From: Sulfurimonas sp.
Lineage (GTDB): Bacteria > Campylobacterota > Campylobacteria > Campylobacterales > Sulfurimonadaceae
Direction: 5' to 3'
Assembly (NCBI GenBank): GCA_028684815.1
Contig: JAQUFE010000007.1
Coordinates: forward strand, 1 to 64,000
Length of the DNA stretch: 64,000 bases
This document shows, one piece after another, positions 14,571 through 49,201 of this stretch (positions are counted from its first letter, which is position 1; each line of letters starts with the position of its first letter). The notes below the pieces were generated by a model. It saw only the letters and a list, made by a program, of their open reading frames with translations. It did not search any database and was not told where the DNA came from. The position numbers and the translations under genes were made by a program.

Positions 14571-16697
14571 TTAATCTAAGATGGAGTTTATAACCATAGA
14601 GGGTCGCCACATACTCTTAGAGCCTTTAGTTTGGAGTTCTAGGTTTAGTTTTGTTTGCGGATAATTCTCTTTAAATATATTAAAAAGAGAGACTATCTGA
14701 TCTTGAAGTCCAAAGTATAAGATATAGTTTTTTATACCATTTTCTATAATAGTTTGCTCTCTTTTTTCTTCTATAGCCTTTTCAAGCTCAACCATATAGC
14801 ACCAGCCATAGATACCAGCAAGTGCAGAACTTTTAGAACTTATCTTCATATATTTTTCTAAAGCTCTATTTACCCCTTTTATATCTGCATCTAAAGCAAA
14901 TTCATTTGCAATTGCTACAGCATCGTTGTACTCTTTTTGAAGTCTTTTAGCATCTTGTGTACTTTGTAAATCCTCATTTAAGGCAAGAATATTATATGCG
15001 CTTGTTATATCATCCTCTTTTATAGCTGCATAAAACTTATGTCTTTGCTCTACACTTTTCATAAGCTCTTTTACTTCTTTGGAAAAATCAGTAAAGTCAA
15101 CTAAGACTCTTAGCATCTTTATAGCCCCATGGGTATCATCTTGTTGTAGGAGTTTTTGGCTCTCTATATAGAGCAAATCACCGTAATCTATAAGCGAGGA
15201 ATAGTCTGAGAGTTCTTTTAAAAATGGGTTTAGTTTAACAAGCTCAAAAGCCGCTTTAAAATCTTTTTGACCAACAGCCATACGAAAGCGTTTGTAAACT
15301 TCACTTTTTGCAAATAACTCTTGTATAAGCATTGTTTTTTGAGATACACCCCTATATGGAGCTAAAAGTTCTCTAGTTATCTCTGCACCATTTGGGTCTA
15401 TGGCATATTTTTGAGCTTTAGAAAATGTTTTTTCCCAGTTTAATTCAAGTGCTTTATATAGTTGTGAGTTTTGATAATGTGGATATTTTAAAGCTAAGGC
15501 GTAAGCTAAAGGAAACTTTGACTCTTGTGCAAACTTAGCAAATTTGTCAAACTCTTCATACTCTCTTATAATAGCTTTGATGATAGTACTTTTTGCTGGT
15601 ATCTCTTGAAAGTTCTTAAAAAGCATTAAAGCAGTTTTTTTATCGCCCTTCTCAAGCGCTAACCTTGCTTTTTTTACCGTTGTCTCCCAGATTGATATAA
15701 GAAGTTTATAGGCTTTTGTGTAAGCAAGTAGTGGATTTCTTTCTACAATTTCTTGGATTTTTTTATAGTTTTTTAGTCTTAAGAGCTTTACAATGCGACC
15801 TTCTGATTCAAATATATCATAAATAAGTAGATTTGCTTCCTCAGTTGCAACTATAAGCTGTAAAGCTTTTTCATCGAAATCGAGGGCTGTTATAGTCGAT
15901 GTTAGTTTTATATATTTTCTTGAGAGCATCTTATAACTCTCTAGTTCATAAACCATAACATAACCAAGTTTAGTCCCTAAAAAAAGGAAATTTCCATCTT
16001 CTGTAGATGCAATACGCAATACATCATCATGAATACCCTCTAATCTAGCAATAACCTTTGCATTTACATAGTCCCAGACAATGGCAACATTTGCCTTGTC
16101 TATACTTATAAGTCTATTTTCACTTAAGAAGTGAACTTTTAAAACCGCCTCATTATGTCCTATAAGTTTATGTACTTTAGTCATGGTTATCAAGTTAAAG
16201 AGGTGTATTTTCTTATCATAACTTGCAGTTGCTACCCACTGAGCATTTTTACTAAAGGCTATATCAGCAAGGGAATCAGAGTGTATGGGAAGAGTGAAGG
16301 CTATTTTTCTGTTTATCATATCAATGGCGTATGATTTTCCATCATCACCACAACTAAACATATATTTACCACTTGGATCTATTGCCACACAGTTTACTTC
16401 ACCACTATGTCTATCCATCTTTGCGATAATTTTTTTGGTTTTGGCACTATAAAGAAGTGCCTCTTTTTTAGTTGAGCTTATAAGTGTAAAGTACAAACCA
16501 TCATAGCTAAAATCAAAAACTTGTCTATTGAAATTTTTATACTCTACACCACATTTAAAACCAGAGAGAATTTTCAAACTCGCAAAATCTAAAAATCTAA
16601 CTACACCCTTAGCATCTACAACTAAAAGATTGCCATCTTCCATCATCTTTACTCTTATGATGGCATCTTTAAAGCTAAGTTCTCTTGTTGGATTCAT
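14571..16697 (-). CDS. WD40 beta-propeller plus alpha-helical repeat protein (paralog of 46912-49011)
   Basis: Function unknown. The 708-aa product has no signal peptide or membrane helix. Residues 1 to about 310 form WD40-like repeats, clearest in HSGEVNCVAIDPSGKYMFSC, HSDSLADIAFSKNAQWVATA and GHNEAVLKVHF. Residues about 315-708 are helix pairs that resemble TPR/solenoid repeats. The second half aligns with the protein at 46912-49011: LxxxWEKT, DFK, LVxxxxFLK and related positions are shared. The start is one base after the ilvA stop, so the gene is coupled to ilvA, perhaps only by position. The propeller-then-solenoid layout is that of coat proteins in eukaryotes; a role as a scaffold is inference. 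Confidence 0.85.
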   Translation of the reverse strand: MNPTRELSFKDAIIRVKMMEDGNLLVVDAKGVVRFLDFASLKILSGFKCGVEYKNFNRQVFDFSYDGLYFTLISSTKKEALLYSAKTKKIIAKMDRHSGEVNCVAIDPSGKYMFSCGDDGKSYAIDMINRKIAFTLPIHSDSLADIAFSKNAQWVATASYDKKIHLFNLITMTKVHKLIGHNEAVLKVHFLSENRLISIDKANVAIVWDYVNAKVIARLEGIHDDVLRIASTEDGNFLFLGTKLGYVMVYELESYKMLSRKYIKLTSTITALDFDEKALQLIVATEEANLLIYDIFESEGRIVKLLRLKNYKKIQEIVERNPLLAYTKAYKLLISIWETTVKKARLALEKGDKKTALMLFKNFQEIPAKSTIIKAIIREYEEFDKFAKFAQESKFPLAYALALKYPHYQNSQLYKALELNWEKTFSKAQKYAIDPNGAEITRELLAPYRGVSQKTMLIQELFAKSEVYKRFRMAVGQKDFKAAFELVKLNPFLKELSDYSSLIDYGDLLYIESQKLLQQDDTHGAIKMLRVLVDFTDFSKEVKELMKSVEQRHKFYAAIKEDDITSAYNILALNEDLQSTQDAKRLQKEYNDAVAIANEFALDADIKGVNRALEKYMKISSKSSALAGIYGWCYMVELEKAIEEKREQTIIENGIKNYILYFGLQDQIVSLFNIFKENYPQTKLNLELQTKGSKSMWRPSMVINSILD

Positions 16698-17908: not shown

Positions 17909-18340
17909 CTAACCCCTCAACGCTTTATGTTCTATCATTGTGCATAAGTTTTGCACAACTCTCATCCCTGCATCTTTAGCTCTTTGTGCAGCTTCATTAT
18001 TTACAATACCAATCTGCGACCAAAAGACCTTAATATCGCCTCTTTCTATACACGCATCAGCTACATCATCTAGTACTTTTGGTTTCCTAAAAATATCTAC
18101 CATATCTACTTCAAATGGTATCTCTTTTAGTGATCTATATACTTTTTCACCTAAGATAGTCTCTTCTTTTGGATAAACAGGTACTATCTTAAAACCACTC
18201 TTTTGAAGATAAGCAGCAACTCTATGACTAGCCTTACTCTCATCTGGAGATAGACCTATAACGGCGATAGTTTTAATCTCTTTAAAAATCTCTTCTATCT
18301 CTTTTTTGTTTGAATTTACCGAGGGGAACTCACACTCCAT
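17909..18340 (-). CDS. CoA-binding domain protein (YccU family)
   Basis: The 143-aa product is a single Rossmann-like CoA_binding_2 domain: IAVIGLSPDESKASHRVAAYL, then VPVYP, VDMVDIFRKP, and the end VVQNLCTMIEH. Family members bind CoA in vitro, but their role is unclear. The ATG at 18340 is chosen because GGAG lies 6 bp upstream. A longer frame reaches 18448, but its extra N-terminus is a translation of the repeat element at 18362-18486 and should not be used. It is the first gene of a run with ilvA and the WD40 protein. Confidence 0.85.
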   Translation of the reverse strand: MECEFPSVNSNKKEIEEIFKEIKTIAVIGLSPDESKASHRVAAYLQKSGFKIVPVYPKEETILGEKVYRSLKEIPFEVDMVDIFRKPKVLDDVADACIERGDIKVFWSQIGIVNNEAAQRAKDAGMRVVQNLCTMIEHKALRG

Positions 18341-18361
18341 CATAATCTCCTTGTAATATAG

Positions 18362-18486
18362 TTTTAATTGAGTGTTCTGAACAATTATTAAATTAGATCC
18401 TGAATCAAGTTCAGGATGACACATATCCCGTGATTTAGTACTTAACACGGAATCTAGTTTACAAATTAATCAGAGGGTTCAATTTT
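18362..18486 (-). repeat. MITE-like element, copy 1
   Basis: The ends form an imperfect inverted repeat (AATTGAGTGTTCTGA at the left; the right end reads AATTGAACCCTCTGA on the other strand). Inside lies the palindrome ATCCTGAA/TCAAG/TTCAGGAT and a decayed second one. The whole element matches, in reverse, 49051-49201. It carries no gene. It lies between the -10 box at 18494 and the CoA-binding gene, so it would be transcribed in that leader. Confidence 0.8.
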
Positions 18487-45918: not shown

Positions 45919-46096
45919 TCGTATTTATACTTTAAACTGTAAAAAGATTATATAAATTACTATAAATGTTATTTAATGTTTCATATATCACACTAGATAT
46001 AAAAAGAACAATTTGTCATTAAAAGGTAGAGGAATGACAACTTTTAAGTTAATCTTTTGTAGGATTGAAACGGAAAATAATTCATCAAGGTTTAAT

Positions 46097-46930
46097 ATGG
46101 ATAAAGCTATTCAACAAAATGTAGATTTGACAAAAGAGTTGCACCAAGCAAATAAAATTTTACAAGAGTATAAAAAAGCTGTTGATGAATCAACAATATT
46201 TTCTATTGGTGATTTAGGCGGAAAAATAACATATGCAAATAAGCAGTTTAGAAATATATCTGGCTACTCGCTAGAAGAGCTCATAGGAAAACCTCACTCT
46301 ATTGTTCGTGACCCAAACACTCCAAAAGAAGCTTTTGAAGATATGTGGAAGACCATACAAAACAAAAAAGTATGGAGAGGGACTCTAAGTAACCGCAAAA
46401 AAAATGGTGATATTTACTATGTAGAAGCAACCATAGTCCCTATACTTGATGAAAACAATGAGATTGTAGAGTATGCAGGCATAAGAAGTGATATCACACT
46501 TTTGGTCACTAAAGAGAAAGAACTTTTAGCATTAAGAGATAAACAGAGATTTGAAGATGTAGATAAAGCACTAAAGATTACTAACTCAAACATCTTAGAT
46601 TCAATGCCATTTGCAGCCATTCTTGTATGTGAAAAAACACATAAAGTTATAGGATTTAATGAGTGCTTCGCATCTATGTTTTTTGAGAGTTCATTTTTGC
46701 AAAAAGAACCTGAAATAGGAGAACTTTTACTAAATAGCGAGGATGATGCCATCTATGAAAATAAGCAGATTAGCTTTATACAAAGATATGAGCTTTTAGC
46801 TCCAGATTGCAGAGCTTACTTAGATATTAATGGTGAAATAGTAGATTTTTTAGTAGGTATAAAAAAACTTGACAAAGCTTATGTAGCCTCTTTTGCTGCT
46901 AAGGAATATGCGTGCAAAACTACCATATAA
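46097..46930 (+). CDS. Aer-type PAS sensor protein without an output domain
   Basis: The 277-aa product has a short coiled coil (1-30), then a PAS domain (about 30-140) whose sequence follows the redox-sensing Aer type: SGYSLEELIGKPHSIVRDPN, TPKEAFEDMWKTI, VWRGTLSNRKKNGDIYYVEA. The second half (about 165-270) looks like a degenerate PAS. There is no HAMP, kinase, GGDEF or methyl-accepting domain. The ATG at 46097 is chosen because AAGG lies 6 bp upstream; a TTG at 46013 and an ATG at 46034 have poor spacing. Its end overlaps the WD40 gene by 19 bp. Confidence 0.82.
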   Translation: MDKAIQQNVDLTKELHQANKILQEYKKAVDESTIFSIGDLGGKITYANKQFRNISGYSLEELIGKPHSIVRDPNTPKEAFEDMWKTIQNKKVWRGTLSNRKKNGDIYYVEATIVPILDENNEIVEYAGIRSDITLLVTKEKELLALRDKQRFEDVDKALKITNSNILDSMPFAAILVCEKTHKVIGFNECFASMFFESSFLQKEPEIGELLLNSEDDAIYENKQISFIQRYELLAPDCRAYLDINGEIVDFLVGIKKLDKAYVASFAAKEYACKTTI

Positions 46931-49011
46931 TCAACCACTTTAAGCTTGAACATCCAATCGTAGAAGTAAAGCTATTAGATGAGAATATCTCTTTTGTAGA
47001 TTCTAAAAATATATTATATATATTTGATAGAAAATTCAAGCTATCACTAAAAATAAAATTAGATAAAGATGATGATACTAAGCACATGTTTTGCAATGAG
47101 TTTAGCATCTCCAACAACAATATCTCTGTACCCTTACAAAAAAATCTTATCTCAACATTTTATAATGAAGAAAAAAAGATAAAGGCTACATTTAAAAGCA
47201 CGATTCATCAAAGCGATATCAACTTTACTCGCTATTCTAAAGATGCTAAGTATCTACTAAGTGCTAGCCTAGATGGAAAAGTCTTTATACATGATTTAGA
47301 GTCAAAAACCATAAGGTATAGCTATAAAAACAGGCCAGACCACTGCTCTTACGCTACTTTTTCACATAAGAATAAGTTTGTTTTTGTGTCATATTTCAAT
47401 CGCATTAACACTTTACTCAACTTACAAGATGACACTATTGTAGAGTTTAATACAAATGATCCCATAGAACTTGCTATCTTCTTCGATGATGATAAAAAGC
47501 TTTTTTTAGCAAATAGAGAGGGTTATAGCATCGTTTATGATTGTATAGAGAAGGAGATTATAAGTCAGAAAGTTTTATTTACCCATTGGCCTTGTAGTGC
47601 CACGTTATCTCAAAATAGAAAAAATATAGTAATTGGTACTAGGACAAATAAGCTCTATATAGTAGATCCATTTAAAAATGAGCTTATAGATAGTATGAAT
47701 TTTGAAGATAGCGCAGTGGGTAAAGTTGACATTAAAGATAATAACTTACTCATAGGTTTTACAAATGGAAATATATCTTTGATAGATCTCAGCTACAATA
47801 AACAGCAGTTCTTACACCATGTAAATCTAAAAGAGTATGACAAAGCCAAGGAAGTTTTAGATGCTAACTGCTTTTTATATCTTGATGATGCTATAGAGAA
47901 GTTTAAAAAGAGTTTTGATGAAGTTTTAATAAAAGCAAAAGAGCTTATTACTAAAAAAAATATCGAAGAAGCTATAAAAATTGCAAACCCATTTATGCAG
48001 TATAAAGAGTTTAAAACAAAGGTAGATGCACTCTTTATGCAACAAGACCATATAGCACTATTTATAGAAGCCGTTGAAAAAAAAGATATAAAAAATGCTT
48101 ACTTTTTTTCTCAAAAATACCCAATAATAGAGTCTCTTCATCACTATACTTTATTAGAAAACAGATGGGAAAAAACTTATGCTGAGGCTAGAAATGCACT
48201 CGAAGAGGATCCCCTTCGAGGCGTACATAAAGCAAAAAATATCTTAAATTTATATGAAAAGATTCCCCAAAAGAGCGAACTTATAAAGTTCTTGTTAAAC
48301 AACAGTGCAATGCTAAACAGAGCAGATGCTGCAGTAAAAAAACAAGATTTTAAAACATACTTTAAGCTTGTAGAAGAGTTCGATTTTTTAAAACAGACTA
48401 GGCTCTTTAAAAAGATACAAGACTTAGCAGTTTCTATAAAAAACAAAGCTACACAACTCTATGTGGATGGAGATTATAAAGAGGCACAAAACACTTATAG
48501 AACTATTTTAGATTTTAAAGAGTATAAGCAGTTTGCCCTAAATGAGATAGAAAAAATAGATCACATACTAAGATTCCAATTTGCCATAGAAAAAGGGAAT
48601 AAAAAGCTAATTTACTCTTTTGCAAATAGATACAATTTTTTAAGCTTTACCCCAGAGTTTGAGAGCTTCAATGAGGAGTTTGATAAACATATAAATGAAG
48701 CTCTAAAGGTCACAAAATATGGAGATATTAAAAAAGCAAGACACATGCTTCATGACTATATAGGCATAAAAGAGTTGGAGCAAAAAATAGATAATACCAT
48801 CAAGATTGGCTATCTTAAGCAGTTTGAAAATGTAGATAGTGACTCTAAATCTCTCGACTTGTTTTTAAAAAGATATAATTTTTTATTTGGAGTTGACAAC
48901 CTCCTAGAGGCAACAATGCAAAAGAAATCTCTATCTAAATTTTATGAAAACTTTAGCAAAAATCCATCAACTCTTGAAGTAAAACGCTATCCAGATTTTT
49001 TGCATCTTTAA
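46912..49011 (+). CDS. WD40 beta-propeller plus alpha-helical repeat protein (paralog of 14571-16697)
   Basis: Function unknown. The 699-aa product has no signal peptide or membrane helix. Residues 1 to about 300 form WD40-like repeats (HQSDINFTRYSKDAKYLLSA, SKDGK-like turns, NRKNIVIGTRTNKLYIVDP). Residues about 305-699 are helix pairs; recurring pieces are SFDEVLIKAKELI, RWEKTYAEARNAL, IKNKATQLYVDGDYKEA and HINEALKVTKYGDIKKA. The solenoid aligns with the other paralog. The GTG start has AAGGA 6 bp upstream and lies inside the PAS gene, so the two proteins are translationally coupled and probably act together. Confidence 0.85.
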   Translation: MQNYHIINHFKLEHPIVEVKLLDENISFVDSKNILYIFDRKFKLSLKIKLDKDDDTKHMFCNEFSISNNNISVPLQKNLISTFYNEEKKIKATFKSTIHQSDINFTRYSKDAKYLLSASLDGKVFIHDLESKTIRYSYKNRPDHCSYATFSHKNKFVFVSYFNRINTLLNLQDDTIVEFNTNDPIELAIFFDDDKKLFLANREGYSIVYDCIEKEIISQKVLFTHWPCSATLSQNRKNIVIGTRTNKLYIVDPFKNELIDSMNFEDSAVGKVDIKDNNLLIGFTNGNISLIDLSYNKQQFLHHVNLKEYDKAKEVLDANCFLYLDDAIEKFKKSFDEVLIKAKELITKKNIEEAIKIANPFMQYKEFKTKVDALFMQQDHIALFIEAVEKKDIKNAYFFSQKYPIIESLHHYTLLENRWEKTYAEARNALEEDPLRGVHKAKNILNLYEKIPQKSELIKFLLNNSAMLNRADAAVKKQDFKTYFKLVEEFDFLKQTRLFKKIQDLAVSIKNKATQLYVDGDYKEAQNTYRTILDFKEYKQFALNEIEKIDHILRFQFAIEKGNKKLIYSFANRYNFLSFTPEFESFNEEFDKHINEALKVTKYGDIKKARHMLHDYIGIKELEQKIDNTIKIGYLKQFENVDSDSKSLDLFLKRYNFLFGVDNLLEATMQKKSLSKFYENFSKNPSTLEVKRYPDFLHL

Positions 49012-49050: not shown

Positions 49051-49201
49051 AAAACCCTCTGATTAATCTATAAACTAGATTCCGTGTCAAGCACGGAATG
49101 ACAGAATACGCACGGAATAATGGGACAATCATGGAATGACGGGACACACGTCATCCTGAACTTGATTCAGGATCCAGCTTAATAATTATTCAGAGCGTTC
49201 A
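49051..49201 (+). repeat. MITE-like element, copy 2
   Basis: The ends read ACCCTCTGA (left) and TCAGAGCGTTCAATT (right), an imperfect inverted repeat. Inside lie two palindromes with the same TCAAG-type loop: TTCCGTG/TCAAG/CACGGAA (49079-49099) and ATCCTGAA/CTTGA/TTCAGGAT (49153-49173), separated by short degenerate copies of CACGGAATGAC. It is the reverse complement of 18362-18486 over most of its length. It lies just upstream of the recO promoter. Confidence 0.8.

Follow-up and report, generated by a model that had tools for sequence, protein, structure and literature searches.

Closest described systems

NifL of Azotobacter vinelandii carries an FAD-PAS domain followed by a second PAS domain, senses redox state and exerts its output through protein–protein contact. 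The sensor encoded in the window (the whole stretch of DNA analyzed here, 64,000 nucleotides from Sulfurimonas sp.) has a similar arrangement. In contrast to NifL, which possesses a GHKL domain and has the sigma54 activator NifA as a partner, no GHKL domain was found in the sensor by domain search, and its neighbor is a WD40-solenoid protein. Likewise, MmoS of Methylococcus capsulatus (3ewk) exhibits tandem PAS domains with FAD-type pocket residues and continues into a histidine kinase, whereas the window sensor, in which no kinase domain was found, ends after its tandem PAS fold. Escherichia coli Aer (8dik) shares with the sensor a PAS domain with conserved FAD-contact residues; the HAMP and MCP signaling domains that define the Aer receptor are absent from the sensor protein, which presents a second PAS-like fold instead.

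A precedent for orphan Aer-type PAS proteins exists in the same order, namely CetB, which works with CetA in the energy taxis of Campylobacter jejuni (PMC2628428). CetB/CetA and the window locus have in common a stand-alone Aer-type PAS protein, no kinase or cyclase, and a separately encoded partner (PMC2628428). The two differ in that CetB is partnered by an MCP-type transducer, while the window sensor bears a second PAS-like module and neighbors a WD40-solenoid gene; being 277 aa long with this second module, and with no MCP-type CetA gene beside it, the sensor is not a CetB. The sequence-only reading of the locus had called it an unfamiliar signaling design. The orphan PAS has its precedent in CetB, while our literature search found no account of an Aer/NifL/CetB-type sensor with a WD40-solenoid partner.

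Regarding the partner, in 2010 the propeller-then-solenoid order was described among bacteria only in the Planctomycetes–Verrucomicrobia–Chlamydiae superphylum (PMC2799638). The WD protein resembles the membrane-coat-like proteins of that report in the order of an N-terminal beta-propeller and a putative alpha-solenoid after it, a likeness of predicted fold order and not a claim of membership, and differs from them in being shorter, with a single propeller and four repeats of ~86 aa, linked to a sensor, and found in Campylobacterales (PMC2799638).

Organization of the gene pair

The pair comprises the following elements:

46097..46930, + strand, sensor gene, 277 aa from ATG
46928-46930, + strand, sensor stop codon TAA
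46912..49011, + strand, WD-solenoid gene, 699 aa from GTG
46912..46930, + strand, overlap of the sensor and WD genes, 19 bp, with the GTG at 46912

Both open reading frames, their strand, their lengths, and the 19-bp overlap match the earlier description exactly. The sensor start is preceded by an AAGG-type Shine–Dalgarno sequence (AAGG at 46087-46090), and the WD gene start by AAGGA at 46901-46905, inside the sensor gene. In the closest relative found (G272), with protein identities of 83% for the sensor and 86% for the WD protein, the overlap also measures 19 bp and the WD gene starts with ATG at the corresponding position, which makes the WD start in the window credible. Between the window and this relative, dN/dS was ~0.12 (sensor) and ~0.07 (WD protein); therefore, both genes are real and under purifying selection. 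In the window, accD lies beside the pair on the opposite strand, and the WD gene follows the sensor. A sigma70 promoter scan of the region returned fewer sites than were found in shuffles, and the PADLOC matches were noise, with no anti-phage link.

The sensor protein and its constant C-terminal module

The sensor is composed of an N-terminal helix, an FAD-type PAS domain (aa 33-132), a linker helix (aa 134-168), and a PAS-like module (aa 173-267), encoded as follows:

46193..46501, + strand, Aer/NifL/MmoS-type PAS domain, from profile match, structure match, and flavin-contact residues
46505..46909, + strand, constant C-terminal module, divergent PAS-like, common to proteins encoded directly 5' of WD-solenoid genes

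In the domain search, PAS_9 matched with E=6.5e-19, far over its cut-off, and PAS families were the sole matches of the protein above cut-off. The closest NCBIfam match was the NifL model TIGR02938 (E 2.3e-29), a partial one with 102 bits against a cut-off of 242 bits that spanned only positions 6-164 of the 494 in the profile. Among solved structures, those of MmoS, Aer, and NifL were nearest in sequence, and the PAS domain was 44% identical to that of the E. coli Aer structure 8dik. The AlphaFold2 model (mean pLDDT 86) comprised two folds, a PAS fold at residues 33-132 and another at 173-267, with a long helix (134-168) between them. Structure comparison of this model gave the MmoS tandem PAS 3ewk as the best match (Z 19.4), followed by Aer (Z 19.3), NifL (Z 18.1), and the NifL–NifA complex 9qq6 (Z 17.5, residues 19-270). 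The rmsd values of the two-domain superpositions were large, so no domain orientation is claimed.

The residues contacting FAD in Aer are H53, R57, M69, W70, N85, and R115 (PMC9668731), and their equivalents in the window are H, R, M, W, N, and R. Since all six are kept, the PAS domain likely binds FAD, and its assignment as Aer-type and FAD-compatible is borne out at the level of the six residues checked. A natural G occupies position 28, and the equivalents of Aer H58 and D60 are D and N.

The protein had been read as a PAS protein without an output domain. Its matches were indeed to PAS families only; what had been overlooked is a conserved PAS-like module of ~140 aa at the C-terminus (residues ~137-277), in which residues 173-267 are predicted to follow the strand–helix–strand order of a PAS domain. 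This module aligns with the proteins preceding other WD genes, despite their differing N-termini, and is probably the coupling part of the sensor. Weaker module-like PAS domains also occur in histidine kinases (L118), so the module is best regarded as a specialized PAS and not as an entirely new kind of domain.

The WD-solenoid protein

The second protein contains two predicted parts, and a paralogous gene is found elsewhere in the window:

46927..47787, + strand, seven-bladed WD40 beta-propeller, aa 6-292, from the AlphaFold2 model and structure matches
47809..48846, + strand, alpha-solenoid made up of four homologous helical repeats of ~86 aa each (aa 300-390, 385-475, 472-560, and 556-645), with a shorter C-terminal cap after them
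14571..16697, - strand, paralogous WD-solenoid gene, 708 aa, between ilvA and ilvB, with no sensor partner

The proposed architecture of WD40 plus helical repeats is upheld by the AlphaFold2 model (mean pLDDT 91.5, pTM 0.84), which shows 28 strands in residues 6-292, forming a seven-bladed propeller, and helices in 297-683. No Pfam family reached its cut-off on this protein, WD40 included, and the single NCBIfam match was far under its own; the model nevertheless contains the seven four-stranded blades, and the propeller matched WD40 structures with Z up to 29.8. The four solenoid units are homologous to one another, with probabilities of 97-99% when segments of the family alignment were compared profile against profile. 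Intraflagellar transport proteins were rejected as a full-length likeness, given the very large rmsd of the Foldseek matches, and were used for the propeller only.

The WD family is present in 154 of the 399 Campylobacterales genomes. The whole family alignment is highly variable, and the scan of a wider collection was run with an alignment of four sequences; it returned two named relatives, both from Epsilonproteobacteria/Campylobacterales MAGs, and one weak WD40 match from an Oscillospiraceae MAG. A widespread WD-solenoid family with the same predicted fold order in another phylum bears on the 2010 claim of uniqueness to the superphylum (PMC2799638). Among the WD matches listed, the longest frame was 790-805 aa and no sensor–WD fusion was seen.

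A module neighbor is lacking for many WD copies, among them the paralogue in the window, so WD proteins can act without the module. In the WD tree, this paralogue (14571-16697) falls in the unlinked clade. WD genes next to a module were clustered, with 4 changes compared to 17.8 in shuffles; the inner branches of the tree are weak, and a single origin of the module-linked copies is not settled by it. Genome G056 bears at least five WD copies, including a tandem pair of WD-solenoid genes without a sensor gene (L042, 2936-7235).

Pairing across the Campylobacterales

A profile built from nine modules lying beside WD genes was searched in the 399 genomes of the order. The training modules had been chosen for their adjoining WD genes and were therefore excluded from the count, leaving 34 matches at >=40 bits, of which three were cut by contig ends and 31 were testable. 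A WD gene was situated directly downstream, on the same strand and within 80 bp, in 27 of these 31 cases, and was adjacent in any orientation in 29 (L112 and L122 having another orientation); the two modules away from a WD gene were the first gene of L113, ~5 kb from a WD system, and L125. By chance, adjacency would be expected about once in a thousand cases (a genome of some 2,200 genes with two WD genes). A module match at E<1e-10 occurred in 37 genomes, all of which carry the WD family (Fisher p=2.5e-17, a value overstated by the relatedness of the genomes). The pair was present in ten families (f1, f5, f6, f7, f9, f14, f15, f19, f20, and f21), with many of the pairs coming from the single family f20. 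Overlaps measured 19 bp in the window and G272, 25 bp in most f20 loci, and 8, 4, or 1 bp elsewhere, while short gaps were found in others. The idea that the pair might be adjacent only in this strain, with an overlap that is not conserved, thus fails, since the genes adjoin in ten families and often overlap.

A search of the phylum yielded one new module match, in an unsampled genus of f14, where the module gene overlaps the WD gene by 4 bp; in this case, the profile had predicted the pairing before it was confirmed. In G314, contig C8 terminates with the two module genes and contig C38 opens with a WD gene at its base 5, the pattern that a break in the assembly between the two would leave. 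G054 has a frameshifted module flanked by a receiver–PAS gene and a WD gene.

These data bear on the simplest alternative, in which the two genes are inherited as an ordinary operon and co-kept for expression while their products never meet. Short overlaps are common in bacteria, and the overlap alone says little. However, the flanking genes vary between families while the pair stays constant, and strongly matching modules hardly ever occur without a WD gene beside them. Moreover, the nearest neighbors of module and WD protein agree across families even with a swapped input domain, as in L016 (REC) with L044 (TM-heme-PAS). This agreement is better evidence than the mirror-tree correlations over the same 30 pairs (0.67 for module–WD and 0.61 for PAS–WD), whose difference is too small to argue from. 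We therefore regard mere operon inheritance as highly improbable. Support for both the pairing and the constant module is good, and the observation is genuine and extends far beyond what the sequence-only reading could show.

Exchangeable inputs and gene order

The domains preceding the module differ among loci. An FAD-type PAS was found in the window, f5, and f7; a receiver plus PAS in f20, f9, f6, f14, and f17 (REC–PAS loci include L059 and L114, with a degenerate one at L010); a receiver only in L016, L110, L111, L119, and L121; two PAS domains in L116; and a transmembrane segment with a weak Tll0287-like/CxxCH match plus PAS in L044 and L112. In f20, several flavin-contact residues are lost, and the module and WD protein are kept. 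The pairing of a redox PAS with a WD protein, as originally described, stands for the window, where the redox PAS is one of several interchangeable inputs and the constant module lies between it and the WD protein.

In L110, L111, L119, L121, and L138, histidine kinase genes lead into a REC–module gene and then the WD gene. The simplest order is therefore kinase, receiver–module, WD, which places the WD protein at the output end; by analogy, the order in the window would be redox PAS, module, WD. The suggestion that the WD scaffold is the effector is accordingly the best reading of the loci in which REC–module and HK–REC–module genes lead into WD, with contact and effect as presumed steps. Alternatively, the WD-solenoid protein could act upstream, sensing or carrying cargo and regulating a PAS/receiver protein whose output protein is distant. 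The order of action is deduced from gene order, and the first protein could act on such a partner; however, several receiver–module genes lie directly behind a kinase gene, which makes them the simplest point of entry for the signal, and we consider an upstream role improbable.

In three genomes, a CetB-like PAS gene, with an MCP-type gene after it, lies near module or WD genes (G031, L053; G314, L109; G328, L113), forming mixed taxis/WD loci; the MCP-type protein of L109 carries MCPsignal and CZB (zinc-binding) domains. These loci, together with the kinases flanking REC–module–WD in L110, L119, and L121, would fit a WD-solenoid adaptor that docks the sensor to chemoreceptors or histidine kinases, the true output being taxis or phosphotransfer elsewhere. 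On the other hand, no MCP or kinase gene adjoins the pair in the window, in G272, or in the f7 and f5 loci inspected. We judge the adaptor role unlikely, and it keeps some weight because of the three genomes with a CetB-like PAS and MCP-type protein.

Other genes were observed after the WD gene. A riboflavin-synthase-like gene is located there in L046 (4743-5354) and L115 (5024-5623), of families f5 and f7, beside FAD-type PAS sensors, which may reflect a flavin link or chance. A gene encoding a cyclophilin-type peptidyl-prolyl isomerase follows the WD gene in L031, L130, L132, and L136 (f20), and in L116 (f15).

Proposed mechanism

We consider it probable that the pair constitutes a split signal-transduction system with the propeller-solenoid protein as its output. 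The mechanism, a good hypothesis, builds on the paired and overlapping genes, the constant module with its exchangeable inputs, the predicted folds, and the purifying selection observed. The first protein would sense redox state through its FAD-type PAS domain with a presumed FAD; the change would pass through the helix to the second, divergent PAS-like relay module, which in turn may bind and switch the presumably co-translated WD40-propeller/helical-solenoid protein. Across the order, the input is swapped (FAD-PAS, receiver, receiver plus PAS, or membrane heme-HAMP-PAS), with relay module and WD protein staying together.

Interchangeable sensors with a constant tail module, encoded directly before a eukaryote-looking propeller/helical-repeat protein, suggest an undescribed bacterial signaling output. 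More tentatively, and as an extension that falls somewhat short of probable, this could be a general output in which a cytoplasmic WD40-propeller/solenoid of membrane-coat-like architecture is switched via the constant relay by interchangeable inputs (redox, heme, and phosphorylation). If the proposal is correct, Campylobacterales sensors and response regulators would be able to act via a large propeller-solenoid protein and not via a kinase, cyclase, DNA-binding domain, or chemoreceptor. This would explain receiver-only and PAS-only proteins seemingly without an output, and would name a concrete partner for them.

A palindromic repeat in the window

The palindromic element CATCCTGAACTTGATTCAGGATC occurs in two exact copies in the window, at 18396-18418 (- strand) and 49152-49174 (+ strand), the latter ~140 bp 3' of the WD stop codon. 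With up to 2 mismatches allowed, 111 copies were found in the 2.27-Mb genome, compared to 0 for the reversed control pattern; the element is a genome-wide interspersed palindromic repeat. The N-terminal extension (..CHPELDSGSNL..) of the ORF at 17909-18448 covers one copy, and since the extension overlies the repeat, the true start of this ORF is probably further in.
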